Origin: a virus | Virus record (IMG/VR): IMGVR_UViG_3300047546_001282 | Coordinates: 1 to 36,548 of that record | Length of the DNA stretch: 36,548 bases | Direction: 5' to 3' (one strand) | Shown here: one piece after another, positions 3,001 through 36,548 of the stretch | Layout of the letters: each line of letters opens with the position of its first letter | Numbering within the stretch: the first letter of the stretch is position 1 | The notes under the pieces: generated by a model | The model's database searches: none | Told to the model about the DNA's origin: nothing | What the model saw: only the letters and a program-made list of their open reading frames with translations | Position numbers and translations under genes: made by a program

Positions 3001-6000
3001 GAAGAGATTGACAAACAATCGGCCAAAAATGCTCGCGATCTTGAAGAAAACTTACAAGCAGTCGTTAGTCAACCCGGTTTATTACGGCGTTTAACTGGCG
3101 GTGTACAACGTGAGGCCGCAGGCTACGTTCGTGATTATCTTACTGGTGTATTCGGTCAATCTCCTGAAGCAACAAGAGCGATAAATGCAATGTTTAGAGG
3201 CGATCAGGTTGTAGCATACGATAATCGAGGGCGTGCACGCAATTTAGTGGGCGCTAATCGACAGCAATTAGTAAATTTACAGCAAAGAGTGAAAACTGAA
3301 AGCGGATTAGATATATCACTTGATGACATTGAACGCTTACAACGCTCAATGGCCAGAGTACAGCAAGCTCGTAATCAATCACCGTTTAATGACACATTTT
3401 TTTACGCAATGTCTCGTGTTAGAGATCTTCAAACTCTTGGGCAGACAGTCATGGGCGTGTTAAATTTACCGCAAACTATTGCCTCAACTATAGGTCAGAT
3501 AGGCGACCCACAACTTCGCACAGAACGTATTATGACTACGGCTCGTGCTCTTTCTTTAAGTCCGGAAACGTATACTAAAGCACTTGCGGCTGCCACACGA
3601 CAGCAGTCTATGTTTGGTGGAACGCTCGCTCGTAATCTTGAGGACATGACCTCATTTATTCCTATATCGAATACGTATGGAGTAGATGTTGGTAAGTCTG
3701 TGCAGGTTGCGCGTAAGCTCGCCGCATTCGATCCTGCTCAAGGTATGCAAGGTGCTAGTATTGCGCTTAAAGAATTTTTGTCTGGTAATGTGTCATCGCT
3801 CAGTAGAAGATTTGAAATTAATCGTAGTGAGCTTTCAAAGATTAACACCGGTGACGCTAACGAGATGTTAGATTCACTTGACGCACTTTTGGCTAAGATG
3901 GGCGTTACTGATAAATTAATTGATGACCAAGCAAATTCATTAGCAACTAAATATGACCGCATGACCGGTCGATTGGAAACATTGCAAGTACAATTTAGTG
4001 CGTTTGCAGTAGGCGCAATGACTCCAATACTCGAACCAATTCTTGGAGATAGATCGTTTCTTGCTCGTCAATCTTTTGACCAAAATTTACAAAAAGTTGT
4101 AAATGAACGATTAAAATCATATGGCGACGCAGTGCTGTCAAATCCAGATACAGGTCTGAGAACTTTAAATGTATTTTCATCTAATTTTCTTGATCAGCTG
4201 GACCCGATGTTAGCAGAGGCAAACGACGCTACTTCTACAGCAGCTTTAGATCTTACTTCAACAACCGGTGCCGTTTCTAATATTGAACTGTACCGTCGAT
4301 TGGGTAATATGAAAGCAGACGAACGCCGTCGTATTCAACAAAGCGCTCAAGTTAGTGTGCTTATGGGGATGAACCAAGATCAGGCTATCTTAAAAGCGAT
4401 GCGCGATGTCGGCGGAGATTTCTTTACGGGTGAGGAGTTTCAAGCGCAAAGACAACCGTTAGGATTCTACGGCAAAGCTTTTAATGCGACTATGCGTGAA
4501 GACATGATTAAAACGTCAGAGCAACAAATGAAATTCAATCAAACTGGGCAAAGAGTTAAAATTCTCAAGCAATTTGATGCTGATACTTATCAAGTTGAAA
4601 TGCCAGATGGACGTTCGGAAGTTGTGCGTCTTGCCGGTGTGGACGCACCGGAGAAAAATACTAAAGAAGGTCAGCAAGCAACTGCGTTTACTCGTGGTAT
4701 GTTCCGCGGCGATCCCGGAAAAGAAGGAAGATACGCGACCCTGTATAGTACCGGTGCGTATGATCCAAATCAACGTCTTATAGGTAGTTTAAGTTATGGT
4801 GGTAGAGACATAGCAACAGCACTTATTGCAACAGGTAATGCTGCGGTGTACAATTATGAAAACAACATGAATCCAGCTTTACTTGCTCCTCTATCAGCAT
4901 TAGAAAGAAACGCCGCAAACACAGGAATAGGTGCAATAAATGCTAATGCAGCTCGATTAGGTTTGGGAGCTAACGCAGAAATTTCAGATGCAGTACGCCG
5001 CAGATATTTTATGAATACGTATCTTGGCACTGCCGGGTTGACTGGTATCGGTGTTGGTGCTGGTGTCGGAGGAATTGCTGGTCTTATAAACACATTTGGT
5101 ACTTTAGGTGCAGCAGCTGGTTCTGCAACGCAGCTAGTATTGCCCGGTTTCGGGGCTGCCGCAACAACTACCGCTGCGGGCACAGTAGGTGGTGCAGTAG
5201 CGTTACCGGCGATTATCGCTGCAGCACTAGCAGGTGCGGGTTATCTAGCATACGCTGGTGTTACAGATAGTAGAGATACTAGTTCTGCAAAATATCGCGA
5301 ACTTTATCGATTACAAAGTGAGGAAAATCAGCGAATTAATGCAGAACAGATAGGTAACAAAATGTACCCGCAAGCAGTGCTTGACGATCAACAACAATTA
5401 GAGGCTGCAGCTGCTGTTCGGCAGACTGCTGCTGGATCGTATGCAGGTTATGCTCAAGGTGCTATTTTAAGCATGGACACTGATACACAAACTGCTAGAG
5501 ATGAGTTTATAGTTCAATATTTAGACACTGGTAGAGAACTTACAAAATATTACAATGGATTATCTCAAGATCAAAAAAGAGTGTATTCACTTATTGTAGA
5601 AGATCCTGCAACAAAGGAACGAAAAAGTGTTTTTCAAGTAATGCAGATGTATCAAGCGTTGGTTATGCGTGATGTAACCGGTACTGACGAAACTGCGAGA
5701 AAGTTGCTTGACGACAATAGATCAAGTTATGATCAGTTTGCTGCTAAAGTATACAATACTACACAGGCGGCTAGCTTGCTGCAAACAGCACAAGAGTATG
5801 GTATTGTTTCTGATTTTACCGCTTATTTCAATAATATACCGCGTGGGCGAGTAAGTCAGGTTATCAGTGATCAACAGTTTATTGATTTAGATGTAGGCCA
5901 GCAGCAAAGAATTACGCAAGAATTAAACGATCAAATAAATCAAGCAAGCTGGAAACGATTTGCAAAAGAATACACAGACCAAGCAATGGAAAAGCAATTT

Positions 6001-20560: not shown

Positions 20561-21472
20561 ATGGCTAGTGGGCACAAAGAAAACTGTCCGGAGTGCGGTG
20601 GTCACAACCTATATGTTACGCCGCATAATGGGTTAGCTTACTGTTTTAATTGTGGGTATCGTAACGGACGTAGTCAAGGTGGCAGCGCGTTTACAAGTAA
20701 TCCTGAGGTCATTGAAGAGATCCGCGATTTCTACGGGAAATGTGTAGGCTACTACACGAGTTGTCTGTCGGGTGCAGCACTTACCTACCTTCATGAGCGT
20801 GGTATTTCTGACTCTGTTATAAAGCAACGTCGTATTGGATTTTGTCCAGATACTCATCATAGTTTATATGACTTACCCATTGCGAAGACGGCTGGAATTA
20901 GTTCGGGTAGGAATTCCGTTCTCCATGGGCGTATTATATTTCCGTATATTTCTCCAGTGACTGGGGCAGTAGTTGATATGCGTGGACGTGCTCTTGACGA
21001 TCAAGCAGTTAAGTACAAGGGTCCGTTTGGTTCTGCATATGTACGTGGAGCTGACGAGTGGCCATATGGAGCCGAGGTTGCGGCTGATTCGTTCTTACTT
21101 ACTGAGGGTGAGATCAAGGCCATCGTTGCTACGCAGCATGGCTTTCCGACAATTGGCCTGCCGGGTATCAACACATGGAAGTGGCGGGTACGCGAGTTAT
21201 CTAAAAAGTCGGTCACTGTCGTCTTTGACTCGCAGCGAAATGCCGCTGTGAATGAGGCCGTTTATCAAGCCATTGATAAATTAGCCTCGCGGCTTGAGTC
21301 ATGTAAGATAGCCACTCTTCCACTTATGGGGCGTGACAAAATGGATCTTGACGAGTTCGTCTTGACAAAGGGTCTACACGAACTTAAACTAGTAGTGGAT
21401 AAAGCGTTGCCCTATGAAACATGGGCGCAACTTCTCAGGAGACCAAGCAATGCAGCAAGACGTAGTTGGTGA
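20561..21472 (+). CDS. DNA primase with zinc finger and Toprim-like domain
   Basis: A 303-residue protein after gaggag. An N-terminal zinc finger C9-P-E-C12 with C28-F-N-C31 matches the template-reading zinc ribbon of bacterial and phage primases. A Toprim-like domain follows: 'LLTEGEIKAIVATQHGF' (E182, E184) and 'VTVVFDSQRNAAVNEAV' (D223). It would make RNA primers for the polymerase encoded downstream, working with the DnaB-type helicase next to it. The usual second acidic residue of the DxD motif is Gln225, so metal binding may differ, resembling Toprim families such as DUF3854. The gene overlaps the helicase start by 23 bases. Shorter than E. coli DnaG, with no helicase-binding C-terminal domain evident. 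Confidence 0.8.
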   Translation: MASGHKENCPECGGHNLYVTPHNGLAYCFNCGYRNGRSQGGSAFTSNPEVIEEIRDFYGKCVGYYTSCLSGAALTYLHERGISDSVIKQRRIGFCPDTHHSLYDLPIAKTAGISSGRNSVLHGRIIFPYISPVTGAVVDMRGRALDDQAVKYKGPFGSAYVRGADEWPYGAEVAADSFLLTEGEIKAIVATQHGFPTIGLPGINTWKWRVRELSKKSVTVVFDSQRNAAVNEAVYQAIDKLASRLESCKIATLPLMGRDKMDLDEFVLTKGLHELKLVVDKALPYETWAQLLRRPSNAARRSW

Positions 21473-22640
21473 GTGGCGGTTACTCTCATCGTTTACACAA
21501 TCACCGGAAGTGATGCACCGCGTCACTCCAGCGCTGTTTACCGATGAGCGGCAAATTGTGTTTAATTCACTTAAGAATGCGTATACTCATTACGGTGAAC
21601 TAACCTATGAGGTTATACGGTTAGCGTTCAATGGCGATGTGCCTAGTGAATTAATGCTTTCAATTCAGTGTAATCAGCGCGCCCTGATAGATGAATTGTC
21701 TATTACGGCTCGAAGACGGCAGCTAGCACAGGCGGCTGAGATTTTGGCGATGGAGGCGAAGGAGTATTCTCCAAATGAGTCACGTATTGCAGAAATACTC
21801 AACTTTGCACCTATTATGTCGTCATCTGATCTATCGCTACTGCCGGGTGCTCAGAAGCTAATGTCGGACCTAAACCGGAAGTACAACGGTACGTATCGAT
21901 TTACACACACGGGTATTCGGTTTCTCGACCAGATGCTCGGCGGTGAGTGGTTGCCGAAGAGCCTTTCTGTTATCATGGCAAAGCCGGGAACTGGTAAAAC
22001 CGCTCTTGTTGGCCAATCGATGCTAGAGATGGCTCTGCAGTATGGCACGTCGAGTTTGTTCTTCTCGCTGGAAATGTCTAAAGAGCAACTGATGTCTCGG
22101 TGGGTATCGTACATGCTCAACATTGACACTACCCTGTTGCAGTTTGGTAAACTCTCTGGTGCCCAGTTGACTGAGGTAGAACAGGCGCTTGTGACCATTC
22201 AGACACTTCCAATGGCGGTAATCGACAATCCGATTATTAGTCTGGCGGGTATACGCAAGGAGATCCGGGACGCCGCTCGTACTGGATGCCGTGTCGTATT
22301 TCTGGATTATCTGCAGATTGTGAAGCATCACAACACAGGTCTGAAGAATTATGATCTGGGTGAGGTTGCTCAGAATTTGAAGGAAGCTGCGAAGGAGTCT
22401 GATCTCGCAGTAGTACTGCTTTCACAGATGAACAAAGTCGGCGAGGGCTTGGACGCGGTACGCGATTCCGGTGAGGTCTCGCAGGTTGCTGACACGGTGA
22501 TCGAGATGTCACCTATTGATGATGTTCCAGATGAGTTGGGTAATCGCGCAATTGGTTTGAAGTTCCACAAAAATCGTAATGGGAGGCTCGGCACGAGTAC
22601 GGTGATATTTAATGGGAGCACGCAAAAGTTCAGTTACTAG
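21450..22640 (+). CDS. DnaB-type replicative helicase
   Basis: A 396-residue hexameric helicase. ATG 21450 is chosen because caggag lies eight bases upstream; a longer in-frame start at 21414 has no comparable site. The first 120 residues match the helical N-terminal domain of DnaB. The RecA-like ATPase domain has the Walker A segment 'AKPGTGKT' (K183, T184), the DnaB signature 'FFSLEMSKEQL', Walker B 'VVFLDYLQIV' and 'VVLLSQMNK'. The C-terminus 'KNRNGRLGTSTVIFN' is typical. It unwinds DNA at the fork and would recruit the upstream primase. It is slightly shorter than E. coli DnaB, common for phage versions. The stop overlaps the next gene by 29 bases. Confidence 0.92.
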   Translation: MQQDVVGEWRLLSSFTQSPEVMHRVTPALFTDERQIVFNSLKNAYTHYGELTYEVIRLAFNGDVPSELMLSIQCNQRALIDELSITARRRQLAQAAEILAMEAKEYSPNESRIAEILNFAPIMSSSDLSLLPGAQKLMSDLNRKYNGTYRFTHTGIRFLDQMLGGEWLPKSLSVIMAKPGTGKTALVGQSMLEMALQYGTSSLFFSLEMSKEQLMSRWVSYMLNIDTTLLQFGKLSGAQLTEVEQALVTIQTLPMAVIDNPIISLAGIRKEIRDAARTGCRVVFLDYLQIVKHHNTGLKNYDLGEVAQNLKEAAKESDLAVVLLSQMNKVGEGLDAVRDSGEVSQVADTVIEMSPIDDVPDELGNRAIGLKFHKNRNGRLGTSTVIFNGSTQKFSY

Positions 22641-23217: not shown

Positions 23218-23540
23218 AGCAACCAAGTGCAGAAGTAACAGCAGTATCTACACTAATTGGCCAGAATTTGTTAGTCGTATTTGGCTCACATTCGTTCAGT
23301 GCCACACTGCTATCCGTTGAGCTGCAGAAGCTCACCGGAATGACCAATCCGCCAGAAAAGCGGGTTGGTTCTGATGGAAAGGGGTACACACCAAAGTGTC
23401 TGCGCCTTGTGTTTGATGCTGGTTCATTAGTTATTGTGTTGGAGGATTGTCGATTGGTTGCATCGCGAGACGGTTTCTGGTTTTTGTTCCCGACATATCG
23501 ATTGGAGGTTCACAGTGCAAGTGCAAATCGTCCGGAGTGA
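23214..23540 (+). CDS. Hypothetical protein between resolvase and DNA polymerase
   Basis: A 108-residue protein with a strong ribosome site (ttggagg) and a four-base ATGA overlap with the preceding gene. Its middle is hydrophobic beta-strand-like ('LRLVFDAGSLVIVLEDCRL'), with no clear motif. Its last 26 bases overlap the start of the polymerase gene, whose ribosome site lies within it, so the two are translationally coupled. It may be a polymerase accessory factor, but only position supports that. Confidence 0.55.
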   Translation: MKQPSAEVTAVSTLIGQNLLVVFGSHSFSATLLSVELQKLTGMTNPPEKRVGSDGKGYTPKCLRLVFDAGSLVIVLEDCRLVASRDGFWFLFPTYRLEVHSASANRPE

Positions 23541-25443
23541 GTGTGATTTAGTGCGTACGCTGGAGACATTTGAGTTTAGCCCCGTTGTTTACCTCGATAC
23601 AGAGACTACTGGGTTAGATCCACGCGCTTCGCAGCTACTCATGGTGCAGCTTGGTACAGAGGAAACTATCTATGTCTATGATTTCACGCGCATTCCTCTA
23701 TCTGCTTTACGTCATTTTGAGGGTGTGTTAACCTCACCTCAAACGGTTAAGGTTATTCACAATGCATCATTTGACTTGAAGGTGTTTTATCACTTTGCTG
23801 GGTATATGGTTGGGCCGGTACACGATACGCGATTCGCGGAGGTTTTGATTAAGGCGGGCATTGAGAATAAGTTTGATCTTGCCTCCGTAGCACAGCGTCG
23901 ATTAAAAGTATCATTGGACAAGTCTGTTCGTGATACATTTATTGGCGCATCAGGCATCGATTTGACCGACGATCAGATTACGTACGCCGCTACTGATGTT
24001 GCGGTATTGCCTCCGATTTATGCTCAACAGTTGAAGGACATTCTCGACGCCGACCTACATCAGGTTTATCAACTAGAGATGGATCTTGTACCAGTAGTCG
24101 CCAAGATGGAATACACTGGTATGCCATTTCAGAAGGATCATTTGATCGGTATCGAGCCAGTACTTGACCAGTTAATAGCCGAGGCTGAGCAGGGCATGCA
24201 GGATGCGCTTATTAGTGCTGGGGTTGTGGACCAAATAGTGTTTACAAAGGACGGGTATAGTGCAATTAACACCTCGTCCAATCAGCAAATGCTGGCCGCG
24301 CTTAACGCCCTTGGTATAGACGTTACCGACCTTAATGCACGTACTGTCACTGAGTGGGATTACCGCAATCGTAAAACTGCCTCAAAGTACGTGCCAGACG
24401 CTTCTTTATTTGAGGATGAGCTGCTTGAATCAATTGATGCCTACGGTCGCTACGAGAATTTTTATCTCCGTATGCACGCATATCTTGGCGGTGCGCGAAA
24501 GCTTCAGTCAACGTATGTGCAAGGGCTTCAGTCGATGGAATCTCCGATTACCAAGCGCATTCATGCAACGTTCACGCAGATTGGGGCCGCTACTGGGCGG
24601 TTTAGTAGTTCACGACCAAATATGCAGAATCTTCCCTCGGACCAGAAGATGAAAAACCTAGGACTATCACACAGCATTCGTCACGCATTTGCGGTGAATG
24701 CAGAGACACATCGCATGATTATTGCTGACTACTCAACCATTGAGCTTGTGATTATTGCTGATGCTAGTGGAGATGAAGTCTTGGATAGTCACCTAGACGA
24801 TCTTCATACGTTTGTTGCTCAGCAAATTCTTGGGGTCAAGGACATCAACAACAAGAACAAGAAAGAGCATCCGTATAAGATTTGGCGTGATGTCGCCAAG
24901 ATGGTCAATTACTCAATTGCTTACTCAGTTGGTGGAGAAAGTTTGGCCAAACAGATGACTATTCAACTCGCTCCGTTGAATGTAAAGTTCAATGCAGCAC
25001 AGGCGGATAAAATTATTGAGTCATGGAAAGCCTTGTTCCCCCAAGCTACGGCATGGCTGAAGAAGAGTGCCCGCAGTGCTGTGGTGTATGGCTGGGTGGC
25101 TGACTCATTTGGTCGCCGTCGTTATTGGGACAGAGACGAGTTCTCTCAAAAGTGGAAGAAGGAAGCAGCAGAGCGTGAGGCAATGAACTTTCCAATTCAG
25201 GGCTTGTCTGCATCGATGGTTAAGCTTGCTCTTATTGATACCTATAAACGGTTGGACGAGCAGCAGGCTTCTATCATCTCGACAGTGCATGATGAAATCA
25301 TACTTGAGAGTACGATTGCATATGCAGAAACTGCGGCCAGTATACTCAAGGACGCGATGGAGATGGCAGCACGACAGGTGTTGCCACGGTTAGGTTCAAG
25401 TGTAATAGTAGAGCCCGCGATTAGTACGAGGTACGACAAATGA
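23515..25443 (+). CDS. polA: Family-A DNA polymerase with 3'-5' exonuclease
   Basis: A 642-residue polymerase without a 5'-3' exonuclease domain. GTG 23515 is chosen because ggagg lies six bases upstream and the exonuclease domain begins right after it. Exonuclease motifs: DTETTGLD (D28, E30), 'HNASFDLK' and YAATD. Polymerase motifs: 'TGRFSSSRPNMQNLPS', motif A DYSTIEL (D405, E410), O-helix R458-x3-K462-x3-Y466-x3-Y470, motif C HDE (592-594). It copies the phage genome with SSB, primase and helicase. Tyr466 sits where E. coli Pol I has Phe762, the residue that governs dideoxynucleotide discrimination. Motif A deviates from DYSQIELR (Thr for Gln, Val for Arg). The stop overlaps the recombinase start (ATGA). 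Confidence 0.93.
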   Translation: MQVQIVRSECDLVRTLETFEFSPVVYLDTETTGLDPRASQLLMVQLGTEETIYVYDFTRIPLSALRHFEGVLTSPQTVKVIHNASFDLKVFYHFAGYMVGPVHDTRFAEVLIKAGIENKFDLASVAQRRLKVSLDKSVRDTFIGASGIDLTDDQITYAATDVAVLPPIYAQQLKDILDADLHQVYQLEMDLVPVVAKMEYTGMPFQKDHLIGIEPVLDQLIAEAEQGMQDALISAGVVDQIVFTKDGYSAINTSSNQQMLAALNALGIDVTDLNARTVTEWDYRNRKTASKYVPDASLFEDELLESIDAYGRYENFYLRMHAYLGGARKLQSTYVQGLQSMESPITKRIHATFTQIGAATGRFSSSRPNMQNLPSDQKMKNLGLSHSIRHAFAVNAETHRMIIADYSTIELVIIADASGDEVLDSHLDDLHTFVAQQILGVKDINNKNKKEHPYKIWRDVAKMVNYSIAYSVGGESLAKQMTIQLAPLNVKFNAAQADKIIESWKALFPQATAWLKKSARSAVVYGWVADSFGRRRYWDRDEFSQKWKKEAAEREAMNFPIQGLSASMVKLALIDTYKRLDEQQASIISTVHDEIILESTIAYAETAASILKDAMEMAARQVLPRLGSSVIVEPAISTRYDK

Positions 25444-26390
25444 CACGTAAGTTAGACACCACTGGATTGAACTTTGGGGATAATCCTCAAGATTTTGAGT
25501 ATTATCCGAGTAGTATTATCTCGCTGAATCAGCTACTTGGCGGCCAAGGGATTCGCGGGGGGCTGATTGTTCAGCTCCTTGCGGATGCAGGGCATGGTAA
25601 GACAACGCTGGCTCTTGATTACGTAGCTCAAGCACAGCGTAAAGGCGTGAAAGATGTACCCATTACCATAGGTAAAATCACACGGAGTATTAATGCGCTT
25701 TTCATCGATCTTGAGCGCACGTACGACGCAGCATACGCCACTACTATTGGAGTCGACACGAGTAAATTACTTGTATATAAGCCTGACTTCGCAGAGCAAG
25801 CACTACCACAAGTGGAGGCTTTGCTATCACAGGGTCTTCAAGTTGTAGTATTTGACAGCGTGCCAGCGATGATAACTAAGGACGAGTTTGAGAAGGACAT
25901 GGACGATCCGGCACGTATGGCCGGGTCCGCTGGAGTACTGAGCCGCTGGCTAATTCGCCTTGTTGGTTTGGTTGATAACGCCAAAGCATTGATGATTTTC
26001 ATCAACCAGTATCGTGCTAATCTCTCGCCTATGGCTCGCACGAATAAAAAGCCATTTGGGCCATACGCATTGCGATATAATTCCGGGGTGATTATTGAGC
26101 TGGTTCGTATTAAGACCGAAGAAGAACTCGTTACAATTCAGGCTACTGTATCAAAGTCTAAGCAGGGTGGCAACGGCTCACGATGTGAGTATATTATGCG
26201 TCAGGGACGCGGACTCGCACCAGAATACGATGTGTTGTCGTTAGCTCTAGAGTATGGTATAATACGTAAAGCCGGGGCGTGGTATGAATTCAAAGGGCAA
26301 AAGGCTCAGGGTCTTGAAAACTGTTTACAGCAGTTCGATATGACAGAACTTCACCGGTTAGTTTTAGAAGGGAGATCCAGCAATGAGTGA
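25440..26390 (+). CDS. RecA/UvsX-like recombinase
   Basis: A 316-residue RecA-superfamily ATPase, translationally coupled to the polymerase gene. Walker A is 'ADAGHGKTTLA' (K54, T55); Walker B is 'QVVVFDSVPAM'; a Q-loop-like 'MIFINQYRANLSPM' follows, as in RecA and UvsX. An N-terminal strand 'IISLNQLLGGQGIRGGLIV' matches the RecA family entry into the core. It would pair single strands with duplex DNA for repair and recombination-dependent replication. It is shorter than E. coli RecA (353), lacking much of the C-terminal domain, as in phage recombinases. Neighbouring nuclease genes make a full recombination module. Confidence 0.85.
   Translation: MTRKLDTTGLNFGDNPQDFEYYPSSIISLNQLLGGQGIRGGLIVQLLADAGHGKTTLALDYVAQAQRKGVKDVPITIGKITRSINALFIDLERTYDAAYATTIGVDTSKLLVYKPDFAEQALPQVEALLSQGLQVVVFDSVPAMITKDEFEKDMDDPARMAGSAGVLSRWLIRLVGLVDNAKALMIFINQYRANLSPMARTNKKPFGPYALRYNSGVIIELVRIKTEEELVTIQATVSKSKQGGNGSRCEYIMRQGRGLAPEYDVLSLALEYGIIRKAGAWYEFKGQKAQGLENCLQQFDMTELHRLVLEGRSSNE
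26235..26263 (+). promoter_or_regulatory. Possible extended -10 promoter in the recombinase gene
   Basis: TTGTCG at 26235-26240 (four of six), a 17-base spacer, and TGG-TATAAT at 26255-26263 form an extended -10 promoter. It lies inside the 3' end of the recombinase gene and would drive the genes from 26383 on. Chance occurrence within a coding region is possible. Confidence 0.45.
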
Positions 26391-26733: not shown

Positions 26734-27496
26734 TTTACCAGAGTTTAGTGCGTCACGATTCAACACGTACAAGACGTGTGCCCGCATGTACTACTATCAG
26801 TATCATGAGTCGCAGCCAAAGAGCGTGCATGCGTACACCGTGATGGGCAGTGCACTGCACTATGCGATCGAGCACTACTACAAGTCAAAAGAACTGCCGT
26901 TAAGTGTATTCTCAACAAAGTTCAATGAGCTGTCTCGAGCAGCGGCGTCTTCAGAGACCGGCATTGTAGCGGGGAATCTAATTAGCAAGGCACATCAGAT
27001 TGGTCAAGACATTCTTCGTGATTTTGATTGGGGAAAGTTGAATCCTACAGAGATCGAGTTTGGGTTCCGCTTTCCATTTCCGCGGGAAAATCCGCTCGTG
27101 ATCATGCGCGGGTTTATTGATATGATTACTGAAGAGGGCTACATCCTCGATCATAAGAGTGCTGGTAAACGGCCAACGAAGGCTGAGCTTGCAGTAAATC
27201 CGCAGCTGCTGCTGTATGTCTGGGCGTATGAGCAAGTTTATGGAAAGAAGCCGGAGAAAGTTTTCTGGCACCATCTTCGAACTGCTGAGCTGATCGAGGC
27301 CGATGTCATGGTGGATTACGATCAGAAGCTAGCAAAGCTTGCCGAGCTACTGCGGTCAATTTTAAGTGACAAAGAATTTGCAAAGCAACCATATGGGTAT
27401 TTTTGCACTAACTTATGTAGCTATCATGATCTTTGCTGGATAAATAAAAATGAACAGTCGTCTGTTACTTCGAGAGGAATTGAGGGATTATTTTAA
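26726..27496 (+). CDS. Cas4/RecB-like nuclease with probable 4Fe-4S cluster
   Basis: A 256-residue PD-(D/E)xK nuclease starting at GTG 26726 (aggag six bases upstream). Motifs in order: 'ASRFNTYKTCARMYYYQYH' (C18), 'GSALHYAIEHYYK', 'GFIDMI' (D132), 'ILDHKSAG' (D142, K144) and 'QLLLYVWAYE'. Near the C-terminus come C227-x3-C231-x5-C237. One N-terminal and three C-terminal cysteines is the Cas4/AddB pattern for a 4Fe-4S cluster that locks the nuclease fold. It probably resects DNA ends for the recombinase encoded just upstream. No Cas1, Cas2 or repeat array is nearby, so this is a phage RecB-family exonuclease, not a CRISPR adaptation gene. Activity is inferred from the motifs. Confidence 0.8.
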   Translation: MSSLPEFSASRFNTYKTCARMYYYQYHESQPKSVHAYTVMGSALHYAIEHYYKSKELPLSVFSTKFNELSRAAASSETGIVAGNLISKAHQIGQDILRDFDWGKLNPTEIEFGFRFPFPRENPLVIMRGFIDMITEEGYILDHKSAGKRPTKAELAVNPQLLLYVWAYEQVYGKKPEKVFWHHLRTAELIEADVMVDYDQKLAKLAELLRSILSDKEFAKQPYGYFCTNLCSYHDLCWINKNEQSSVTSRGIEGLF

Positions 27497-27836
27497 TGAC
27501 AGACTTCCCACCGATGATGCAATCTCGTATCAGCAAGCACTGCAGCAAAATGCTCGCTTTATGGTTGATAATCATCCAATGTCGTTAATTTTGTTACAGG
27601 AGTGGGGAGCTGGATACACAGTTTTTGAGATTTCTATGCGAAACCAGTTACATCTAGGGGTCGTTTGCGACATCTTAAAATTTTGTTTTGAGCTTTTGGG
27701 ACGTAAGCTACACGTTGACGACGCGAGTGTGTTAGCGACAATTCCACAGCAACTGCGTCCAATGGCCAAGAGTGTGTTTCACGCGTATTATGATACGTTC
27801 ACAGAATTACCAGAGAGGGAGGTAGACATGGTATGA
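27450..27836 (+). CDS. Hypothetical protein, helical
   Basis: A 128-residue protein overlapping the previous gene by 47 bases; no strong ribosome site precedes the ATG at 27450, so the true start could be downstream. It is helical with several hydrophobic patches ('HLGVVCDILKFCFELLGRK') but no clear transmembrane segment, signal peptide or known motif. It overlaps the following gene by four bases. I do not recognise a family. Confidence 0.5.
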   Translation: MNSRLLLREELRDYFNDRLPTDDAISYQQALQQNARFMVDNHPMSLILLQEWGAGYTVFEISMRNQLHLGVVCDILKFCFELLGRKLHVDDASVLATIPQQLRPMAKSVFHAYYDTFTELPEREVDMV

Positions 27837-30806: not shown

Positions 30807-30882
30807 GCCGGTGTAACTCAATGGACAGAGTAACTGCCTTCTAAGCAGTAAGTTGTGGGTTCGAATCCCGCCACCGGCACCA
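30807..30882 (+). tRNA. tRNA-Arg (anticodon TCT)
   Basis: A cloverleaf with 7-bp acceptor (gccggtg with caccggc), D arm (actc/gagt), anticodon stem actgc/gcagt with loop cttctaa (anticodon TCT at 30840-30842), T arm with ttcgaat, discriminator A and encoded CCA. It reads AGA. Confidence 0.95.
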
Positions 30883-32388: not shown

Positions 32389-32474
32389 GCCGAAGTGGCG
32401 GAATGGCAGACGCTACGGTCTTAAAAACCGTTGAGGGCAACCTCGTACGGGTTCGACTCCCGTCTTCGGCACCA
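32389..32474 (+). tRNA. tRNA-Leu (anticodon TAA)
   Basis: A type II tRNA with 7-bp acceptor (gccgaag with cttcggc), anticodon stem acggt/accgt and loop cttaaaa (anticodon TAA at 32422-32424), a long variable arm (gagggcaacctc), T loop ttcgact, discriminator A and encoded CCA. It reads TTA. Confidence 0.95.
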
Positions 32475-35910: not shown

Positions 35911-35948
35911 CACTGCACCTCTTCACAAAGGTGCAGTGCTTTTTTTTT
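35911..35948 (+). terminator. Strong Rho-independent terminator
   Basis: A 10-bp stem (cactgcacct with aggtgcagtg), an eight-base loop and nine T in a row after gc. It ends the rightward gene block and separates it from the non-coding region to the right. Confidence 0.95.
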
Positions 35949-36028
35949 ATTGAGAAAAAGAGCCTATGCATACGATCTGGGGTATATGTTTTAAGGGTGC
36001 AAATTGGCCATGTTCGTTACTTTGTCCT

Positions 36029-36103
36029 AATGTCCGGACATTTGCATGAAACTACGTATGATATAATTTCCGCATTCGTTTATAAGTATGGCTTTTAAAA
36101 GCC
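36029..36103 (+). promoter_or_regulatory. Extended -10 promoter flanked by two 14-bp palindromes
   Basis: TGA-TATAAT at 36059-36067 is an extended -10 box. Upstream is the perfect palindrome AATGTCCGGACATT (36029-36042), over the expected -35 position. Downstream is GGCTTTTAAAAGCC (36090-36103), also perfect. Such dyads are typical operator sites for a dimeric repressor. The -35 box itself is weak (TTTGCA, 15-base spacing). What is transcribed rightward is beyond or inside the gene-free region. Confidence 0.5.
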
Positions 36104-36164
36104 TCAAATCGCCTCTATAGGGCCAGCGCGATTGTGAAAACAGGCACGAATACTATACATAAAG

Positions 36165-36226
36165 TTATCCACAAGTTATCCACATTGGCCAATCTTTACG
36201 TAATTATTGACATAAAGTTATCCACA
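36165..36226 (+). promoter_or_regulatory. Three perfect DnaA boxes
   Basis: TTATCCACA occurs at 36165-36173, 36176-36184 and 36218-36226, all in the same orientation and identical to the E. coli R1-type box. The first two start 11 bases apart (one helical turn); the first and third start 53 bases apart (about five turns), as part of an 18-base repeat. Confidence 0.85.
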
Positions 36227-36468
36227 ATGCCAGTAACGCTGGTAAACATGATCGAAAATAGGACAAAACTTGGCCAATTGTCCTGTGTAATGTGAAAAGC
36301 AGGCATAAAACACAAGTGTAAGTATTTAGCAGCGTTATGTCGACAGCGTTTTAGCGCATTGTGATGCCTAAATCGACGATTGGCCATGTTTCAAAGCAAC
36401 ATTAGTTCCGTAATGTTGTTTTGAATATTTTTTACACAATCGCGCAATGATCGCGCCGCCGGGCTCGT

Positions 36469-36520
36469 CTCCCCCGAGCCCCCTCTCGCAAATTTGAGCT
36501 TGCCTCCCCCGAGCCCCCTC
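36469..36520 (+). repeat. GC-rich 17-bp direct repeats at the right edge
   Basis: CTCCCCCGAGCCCCCTC occurs at 36469-36485 and 36504-36520, 35 bases apart. A preceding GGGCTCG (36461-36467) can pair with CGAGCCC in the first copy. The composition contrasts with the AT-rich origin-like part next to it. Confidence 0.7.
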
Positions 36521-36548
36521 CTGCGCCTTCAGCAATCTTCCCGAAGGG

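Follow-up and report, generated by a model that had tools for sequence, protein, structure and literature searches.

Helically phased DnaA boxes in a conserved phage non-coding gap: a very probable host-DnaA binding site and a possible auxiliary replication start

The DNA analyzed here, called the window, is a linear fragment of 36,548 bases from the virus record of a lytic-type phage, and it ends 322 bp past the third of 3 perfect DnaA boxes. These boxes very probably are a binding site for the DnaA protein of the host, because they have the consensus motif, lie in helical phase and are conserved among related phages. The gap that contains them looks like a cis-acting locus and not like leftover DNA. 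Our preferred reading, held tentatively, is that it is a control locus recruiting host DnaA and that it serves as an auxiliary, DnaA-assisted start of replication.

The exact motif TTATCCACA occurs 3 times, always on the + strand, with no further exact copy in the 36,548 bases. The boxes and the units built around them are as follows.

36165 to 36173, + strand: perfect DnaA box 1, exact TTATCCACA, kept in the closest relative, G001
36176 to 36184, + strand: perfect DnaA box 2, exact TTATCCACA, 11 bp (one turn) after box 1
36218 to 36226, + strand: perfect DnaA box 3, exact TTATCCACA, 42 bp (four turns) after box 2
36157 to 36184, + strand: composite unit ACATAAAGTTATCCACA-NN-TTATCCACA, direct repeat D1, also found in G001 and twice in L345
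36207 to 36226, + strand: TTGACATAAAGTTATCCACA, where the extended box recurs, with the sequence unchanged in G001, G005 and L345

Start-to-start spacings of 11 and 42, and of 53 from first to third, amount to about 1, 4 and 5 helical turns. By a second-order Markov model of the window, the chance expectation is 0.28 perfect boxes per window, and for same-strand triples within 62 bp it is about 6 × 10−9. The first-pass annotation, made from the sequence alone, had noticed 3 same-strand perfect boxes at helical spacings of 11 and 53, and that observation is confirmed.

Relatives were found by way of their metallophosphatase and polymerase. Those that are 40-94% identical in the marker protein have 2-4 boxes in non-coding DNA, mostly at 11-bp spacing, with 11-bp tandem pairs or triples in eleven of them (G001, G005, G008, G018, G019, G020, G048, G053, G054, G061 and G062). 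Three-box arrays with strict 11-bp spacing are found in G005, G008, G018, G019, G020, G061, G062 and G053/G054, while G001 has spacings of 11 and ~42 as in the window, and the distant relative G048 has 11-42-11. Between the window and G001, the boxes are identical at 27/27 bases and the adjoining unit bases at 19/20, as compared with 74% identity for the remainder of 36070-36330. The relatives' contigs of 69-80 kb have 2 gene arms, with one junction from which the arms diverge and a second at which they converge. The array is at the convergent junction in G001, G005, G008 and G053/G054, and in the window by continuation; G019 and G020 have it in or beside the convergent-junction gap. It is found between divergent genes in L345 and between same-direction genes in L367/L368, and it is absent from the near-complete relatives G006 and G007. 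Since the boxes are conserved, and are missing in some relatives and placed differently in others, the array is under selection, yet neither universal nor fixed in place. The divergent gap of L345 also has, at 3100-3260, three near-copies of CTATCTCTATATATACCC...TATTTATTTGTCAC adjoining 4 DnaA boxes.

All convincing genes of the window are on the + strand, structural genes first and then replication genes, the latter in the order primase, DnaB-like helicase, PDDEXK resolvase-like protein, family A polymerase, RecA/UvsX, Cas4-like exonuclease and ThyX. That the phage encodes a replication set, as the annotation had it, is borne out by the primase, helicase, PolA, recombinase and resolvase.

20561 to 21472, + strand: DnaG-type primase (PF08275, 2.7 × 10−8; phrog_47, 8 × 10−26)
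21414 to 22640, + strand: DnaB-like replicative helicase (PF03796, 9 × 10−43)
23434 to 25443, + strand: family A DNA polymerase with 3'-5' exonuclease (PF00476, 1 × 10−64; PF01612, 3 × 10−24)
25440 to 26390, + strand: RecA/UvsX-type recombinase (PF00154, 3 × 10−33; phrog_97, 4 × 10−42)

There is no DnaA domain in the window or in seven relatives, a PHROGs scan of 30 window proteins recognized neither a helicase loader nor an initiator, and no Rep-like protein was recognized among the scanned proteins. Two conserved proteins of the replication arm belonging to no assigned family were modeled, one of 128 aa (pLDDT 89) and one of 264 aa (pLDDT 81), and a fold search with the predicted structures gave no significant match. 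A gp32-like reading of the 264-aa protein comes from one weak Pfam match (E = 0.022). The 128-aa protein (27450-27836) is conserved and all-helical in its model with weak sigma/HTH-like resemblances only, and may be considered a candidate regulator of the phage family. Genes for tRNA-Arg(tct) and tRNA-Leu(taa) are found at 30807-30882 and 32389-32474, the former retained in most relatives. As to the wider affiliation of the phage, a DNA search against cultured phages gave no match, the best protein relatives are scattered over unrelated phages, and a genome scan produced three remote matches only.

The gap around the boxes has no ORF of at least 65 aa from 35873 to the contig end, which upholds the earlier description of a gene-free area, and its one ORF of 63 aa is on the - strand. 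It is among the longest gene-free gaps in the window, and in G001, G005 and G019 no other ORF-free gap is as long as the one with the array. The palindromes and repeats said to lie near the boxes are present, but "AT-rich" was an overstatement, with the last kb at 41% GC against ~43% overall. By calculated DNA stability, the window has 32 other places that would melt more easily than the box region. The gap is not among the least stable windows in the window, G001 or G005, and in G008 and G019 it ranks at or close to the bottom in stability. The features read from it are these.

35911 to 35948, + strand: rho-independent terminator of the upstream gene arm, 10-bp stem and 9 T
36004 to 36386, no strand assigned: four TTGGCCA sites (36004, 36185, 36270, 36380), possible iteron-like sites for a putative phage protein
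36029 to 36042, no strand assigned: palindrome AATGTCCGGACATT, just upstream of the promoter-like site, read from the sequence
36059 to 36067, + strand: extended -10-like TGATATAAT, kept in G001 and G005 and possibly part of a promoter whose transcript would run through the boxes
36316 to 36434, + strand: the most conserved non-coding block, ending in the hairpin AAAGCAACATTAG...TAATGTTGTTTTGAATATTTTTT

TTGGCCA has a density of 5.9 per kb in the gap versus 0.36 per kb elsewhere, and 0/352 other windows are equally dense. Counting TTGGCCA/TGGCC, neither the window nor G007 nor G008 has another equal-length stretch as dense as the gap; the clustering is less sharp in G001 and G006, where few windows are as dense, the excess is modest in G005, and there is no clustering in the gap of G019/G020. 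No good -35 element was found for the -10-like site. G005 has a different palindrome at the position matching AATGTCCGGACATT, and its boxes are shifted relative to the -10-like site. The hairpin with its T-run, and a 100-bp block between the boxes and the hairpin, are conserved in G001 and G005, and the hairpin is also at the junction in G008, in G053/G054 and, weakly, in the array-less G006.

Several side observations belong to this same stretch. The interval 36062-36434, from the -10-like site to the terminator hairpin, could give a small non-coding transcript, with an RNA fold z-score of -2.4; no known RNA family was found in the gap. At the contig end, 36462-36520, there is a tandem C-rich repeat CTCCCCCGAGCCCCCT, which in G005 directly follows the conserved hairpin, and the contig may have broken at this repeat. 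TGGCCA is the most over-represented palindromic 6-mer, at 2.7-3.5x first-order expectation, in the window, G001, G005, G006 and G008, whereas G020 does the opposite with a single GGCC in 72 kb. Such opposite treatment in sister phages is possibly a signature of restriction or methylation.

For the preferred reading, an auxiliary start, the proposed course of events would be that host DnaA binds the boxes cooperatively and, early in infection, promotes the opening of DNA close by, possibly together with a phage protein bound to the TTGGCCA sites, as in the origins of P1, F and RK2, which combine iterons with DnaA boxes. The opened site would bring in the phage DnaB-like helicase, and the phage primase, polymerase and recombinase would then take over. 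We call this start auxiliary or early because some relatives lack the array. In its favor are boxes beyond chance, conserved, in a long gap with TTGGCCA sites and palindromes, in a phage with no recognized DnaA domain or loader. In predicted unwinding modules of bacterial origins, the most frequent arrangement is tandem boxes separated by up to 3 bp (PMC8287927), and in the P1, F, RK2 and pSC101 origins host DnaA assists Rep (PMC4980987).

The evidence against it begins with GC skew. Because the window is a linear fragment, a whole-genome skew test needed the relatives, in which cumulative GC skew is maximal at the array junction and minimal at the divergent junction. The skew inversion that the first-pass annotation proposed to look for is thus present exactly at the array, but with a sign like that of a terminus, the bacterial rule being that the cumulative maximum marks the terminus. 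Since gene direction runs parallel to it, skew gives no means of telling coding bias from replication bias, and skew of minority-strand genes, which might have separated them, had too few genes to work with, possibly spurious ORFs. The divergent junction is furthermore the least stable 100 bp of G005, G006, G007, G017 and G020. It is a strong candidate for an alternative origin, and the main, bidirectional origin might fairly be placed there instead. Two such junctions, at about 2825-3161 of L070 and 55437-55870 of G006, have AT-rich palindromes and sigma-70-like promoters in this least stable DNA. An oriC-like unwinding module with DnaA-trios was rejected for the array, with no trio within 16 bp of the window boxes (runs of 1-3 triplets, near the shuffled mean) and no enrichment at 93 non-redundant viral arrays. 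Also counting against an auxiliary start are the lack of special AT-richness, the array-less G006 and G007, the varying position of the array relative to neighbor genes and promoter (G005, L345, L367), and the start of replication from transcripts of phage RNA polymerase that is known for T7-like phages with such arrays. Of the earlier proposal of a phage origin fired by host DnaA, then, the DnaA binding is supported by boxes, phase, conservation and the lack of a phage DnaA domain, while the origin is unproved, with a terminus-like skew and the most meltable DNA elsewhere; the array as a replication origin is possible.

How widespread such arrays are was asked of IMG/VR with a scan for 3 perfect boxes with free gaps of 0-25 bp, the reversed motif serving as control. 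The scan found at least 120 arrays; the reversed motif gave 19 across the entire collection. Among the matches listed, which include related contigs, the spacings cluster around 11-12, 21-23 and 32-33 bp and hardly ever fall at 13-17, and this is helical phasing. In 26 array-bearing records of at least 20 kb, DnaB_C is found in 11, DNA_pol_A in 7 and both in 6; one of 26 array-bearing records other than those of the window and the seven relatives has a DnaA domain. Similar arrays are found in cultured T7-like, T5-like, Lactococcus and Arthrobacter phages. The first-pass annotation called it uncommon to combine DnaA boxes with a phage replisome, and that view does not hold: phased arrays are common in IMG/VR, and so is the combination, with both helicase and polymerase in 6/26 records and such arrays in cultured T7-like and T5-like phages that have their own replisomes. 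DnaA boxes were already described for T5-type phages, and a DnaA-box origin was already predicted for PseuGes_254.

The main rival account, which we consider less likely than an auxiliary start, is that the array is a decoy. As phage copies rise, a sink or datA-like site would tie up or inactivate host DnaA and block new host rounds, with the phage starting elsewhere. The arrays recur in early or pre-early regions of full-replisome phages, which should not need DnaA; in the family of the window the array is variable in position and dispensable; and no unwinding element lies beside the viral arrays. The roughly 200 DnaA molecules per origin in E. coli can be titrated by box-bearing plasmids or by datA, which has two consensus and four one-mismatch boxes (PMC5835720). 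Three boxes per genome are few for this purpose, however, and simple titration needs no strict same-strand helical phasing, yet the viral arrays are phased, although datA does need a defined architecture. A generalization, which on the sequences in hand we would call unlikely, is that phased perfect-box arrays are a widespread, convergently acquired phage device manipulating host DnaA, as a decoy or a nucleotide-state switch, to control host replication in phages that do not need DnaA, the family of the window being one example.

Another serious rival, though rather improbable, is a terminus or junction element, where replication would start at the AT-rich divergent junction, forks and operons would meet at the array, and DnaA-bound boxes and hairpins would insulate or regulate the convergent ends or the small transcript. 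The skew extremes, gene directions and least stable DNA all fall where this account would have them, terminator hairpins flank the boxes on both sides, the -10-like site is conserved, and the RNA fold z-score is in keeping. It is opposed by the array in divergent DNA in L345 and between same-direction genes in L367/L368, and by the shift of boxes against the -10 in G005; moreover, DnaA is not known as a terminus protein. A landmark for DNA entry or packaging was proposed for the DnaA boxes of the T5-type injection stop signal, which is described as repeats, palindromes and DnaA boxes (PMC13250531). BF23 has its boxes in the terminal repeat and Arthrobacter phage boxes are <100 bp from the genome end, but here this role is quite improbable, as the relatives' contigs pass through the junction and break at unrelated places with no sign of a fixed end. 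A functionless chance cluster, for which nothing speaks but the shortness of the motif, has a negligible chance given the expectation above and family-wide conservation of the array.

Among known systems, the basal unwinding system of bacterial oriC (B. subtilis DnaA boxes 6/7 with DnaA-trios) shares the tandem same-strand TTATCCACA with a 2-bp gap, but the window has neither a downstream DnaA-trio nor neighboring dnaA/dnaN. The origins of P1, F, RK2 and pSC101 likewise have tandem host DnaA boxes in a repeat-rich non-coding locus (PMC4980987). Compared with this iteron plasmid or P1 oriR type, the window has no recognized Rep, its iterons are only putative, no AT-rich element is demonstrated beside its boxes, and the phage encodes its own helicase, primase and polymerase. 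In E. coli datA, too, strong DnaA boxes cluster in non-coding DNA and can bind DnaA at a distance from an origin, in a different box arrangement. Pseudomonas phage PseuGes_254, a lytic phage with PolA and primase, has an intergenic DnaA-box locus called an origin (PMC11512268), but that origin is software-predicted only, is near an AT-rich repeat, and belongs to an unrelated phage. Escherichia phage nasanit and Klebsiella phage FBKp16 (T7-like) and BF23 (T5-like) have exact phased box clusters in non-coding DNA together with their own replisome, although these phages are unrelated and their arrays are in early, left-end or terminal-repeat DNA instead of at a convergent gene junction. A lytic phage that supplies its own replisome is commonly regarded as not depending on the host's initiator. 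The presence of conserved phased arrays in many such phages, cultured T7-like and T5-like phages of E. coli among them, suggests that contact between DnaA and phage genomes is common and has hardly been studied. As some of these phages are in culture, they allow a direct test of origin versus decoy.
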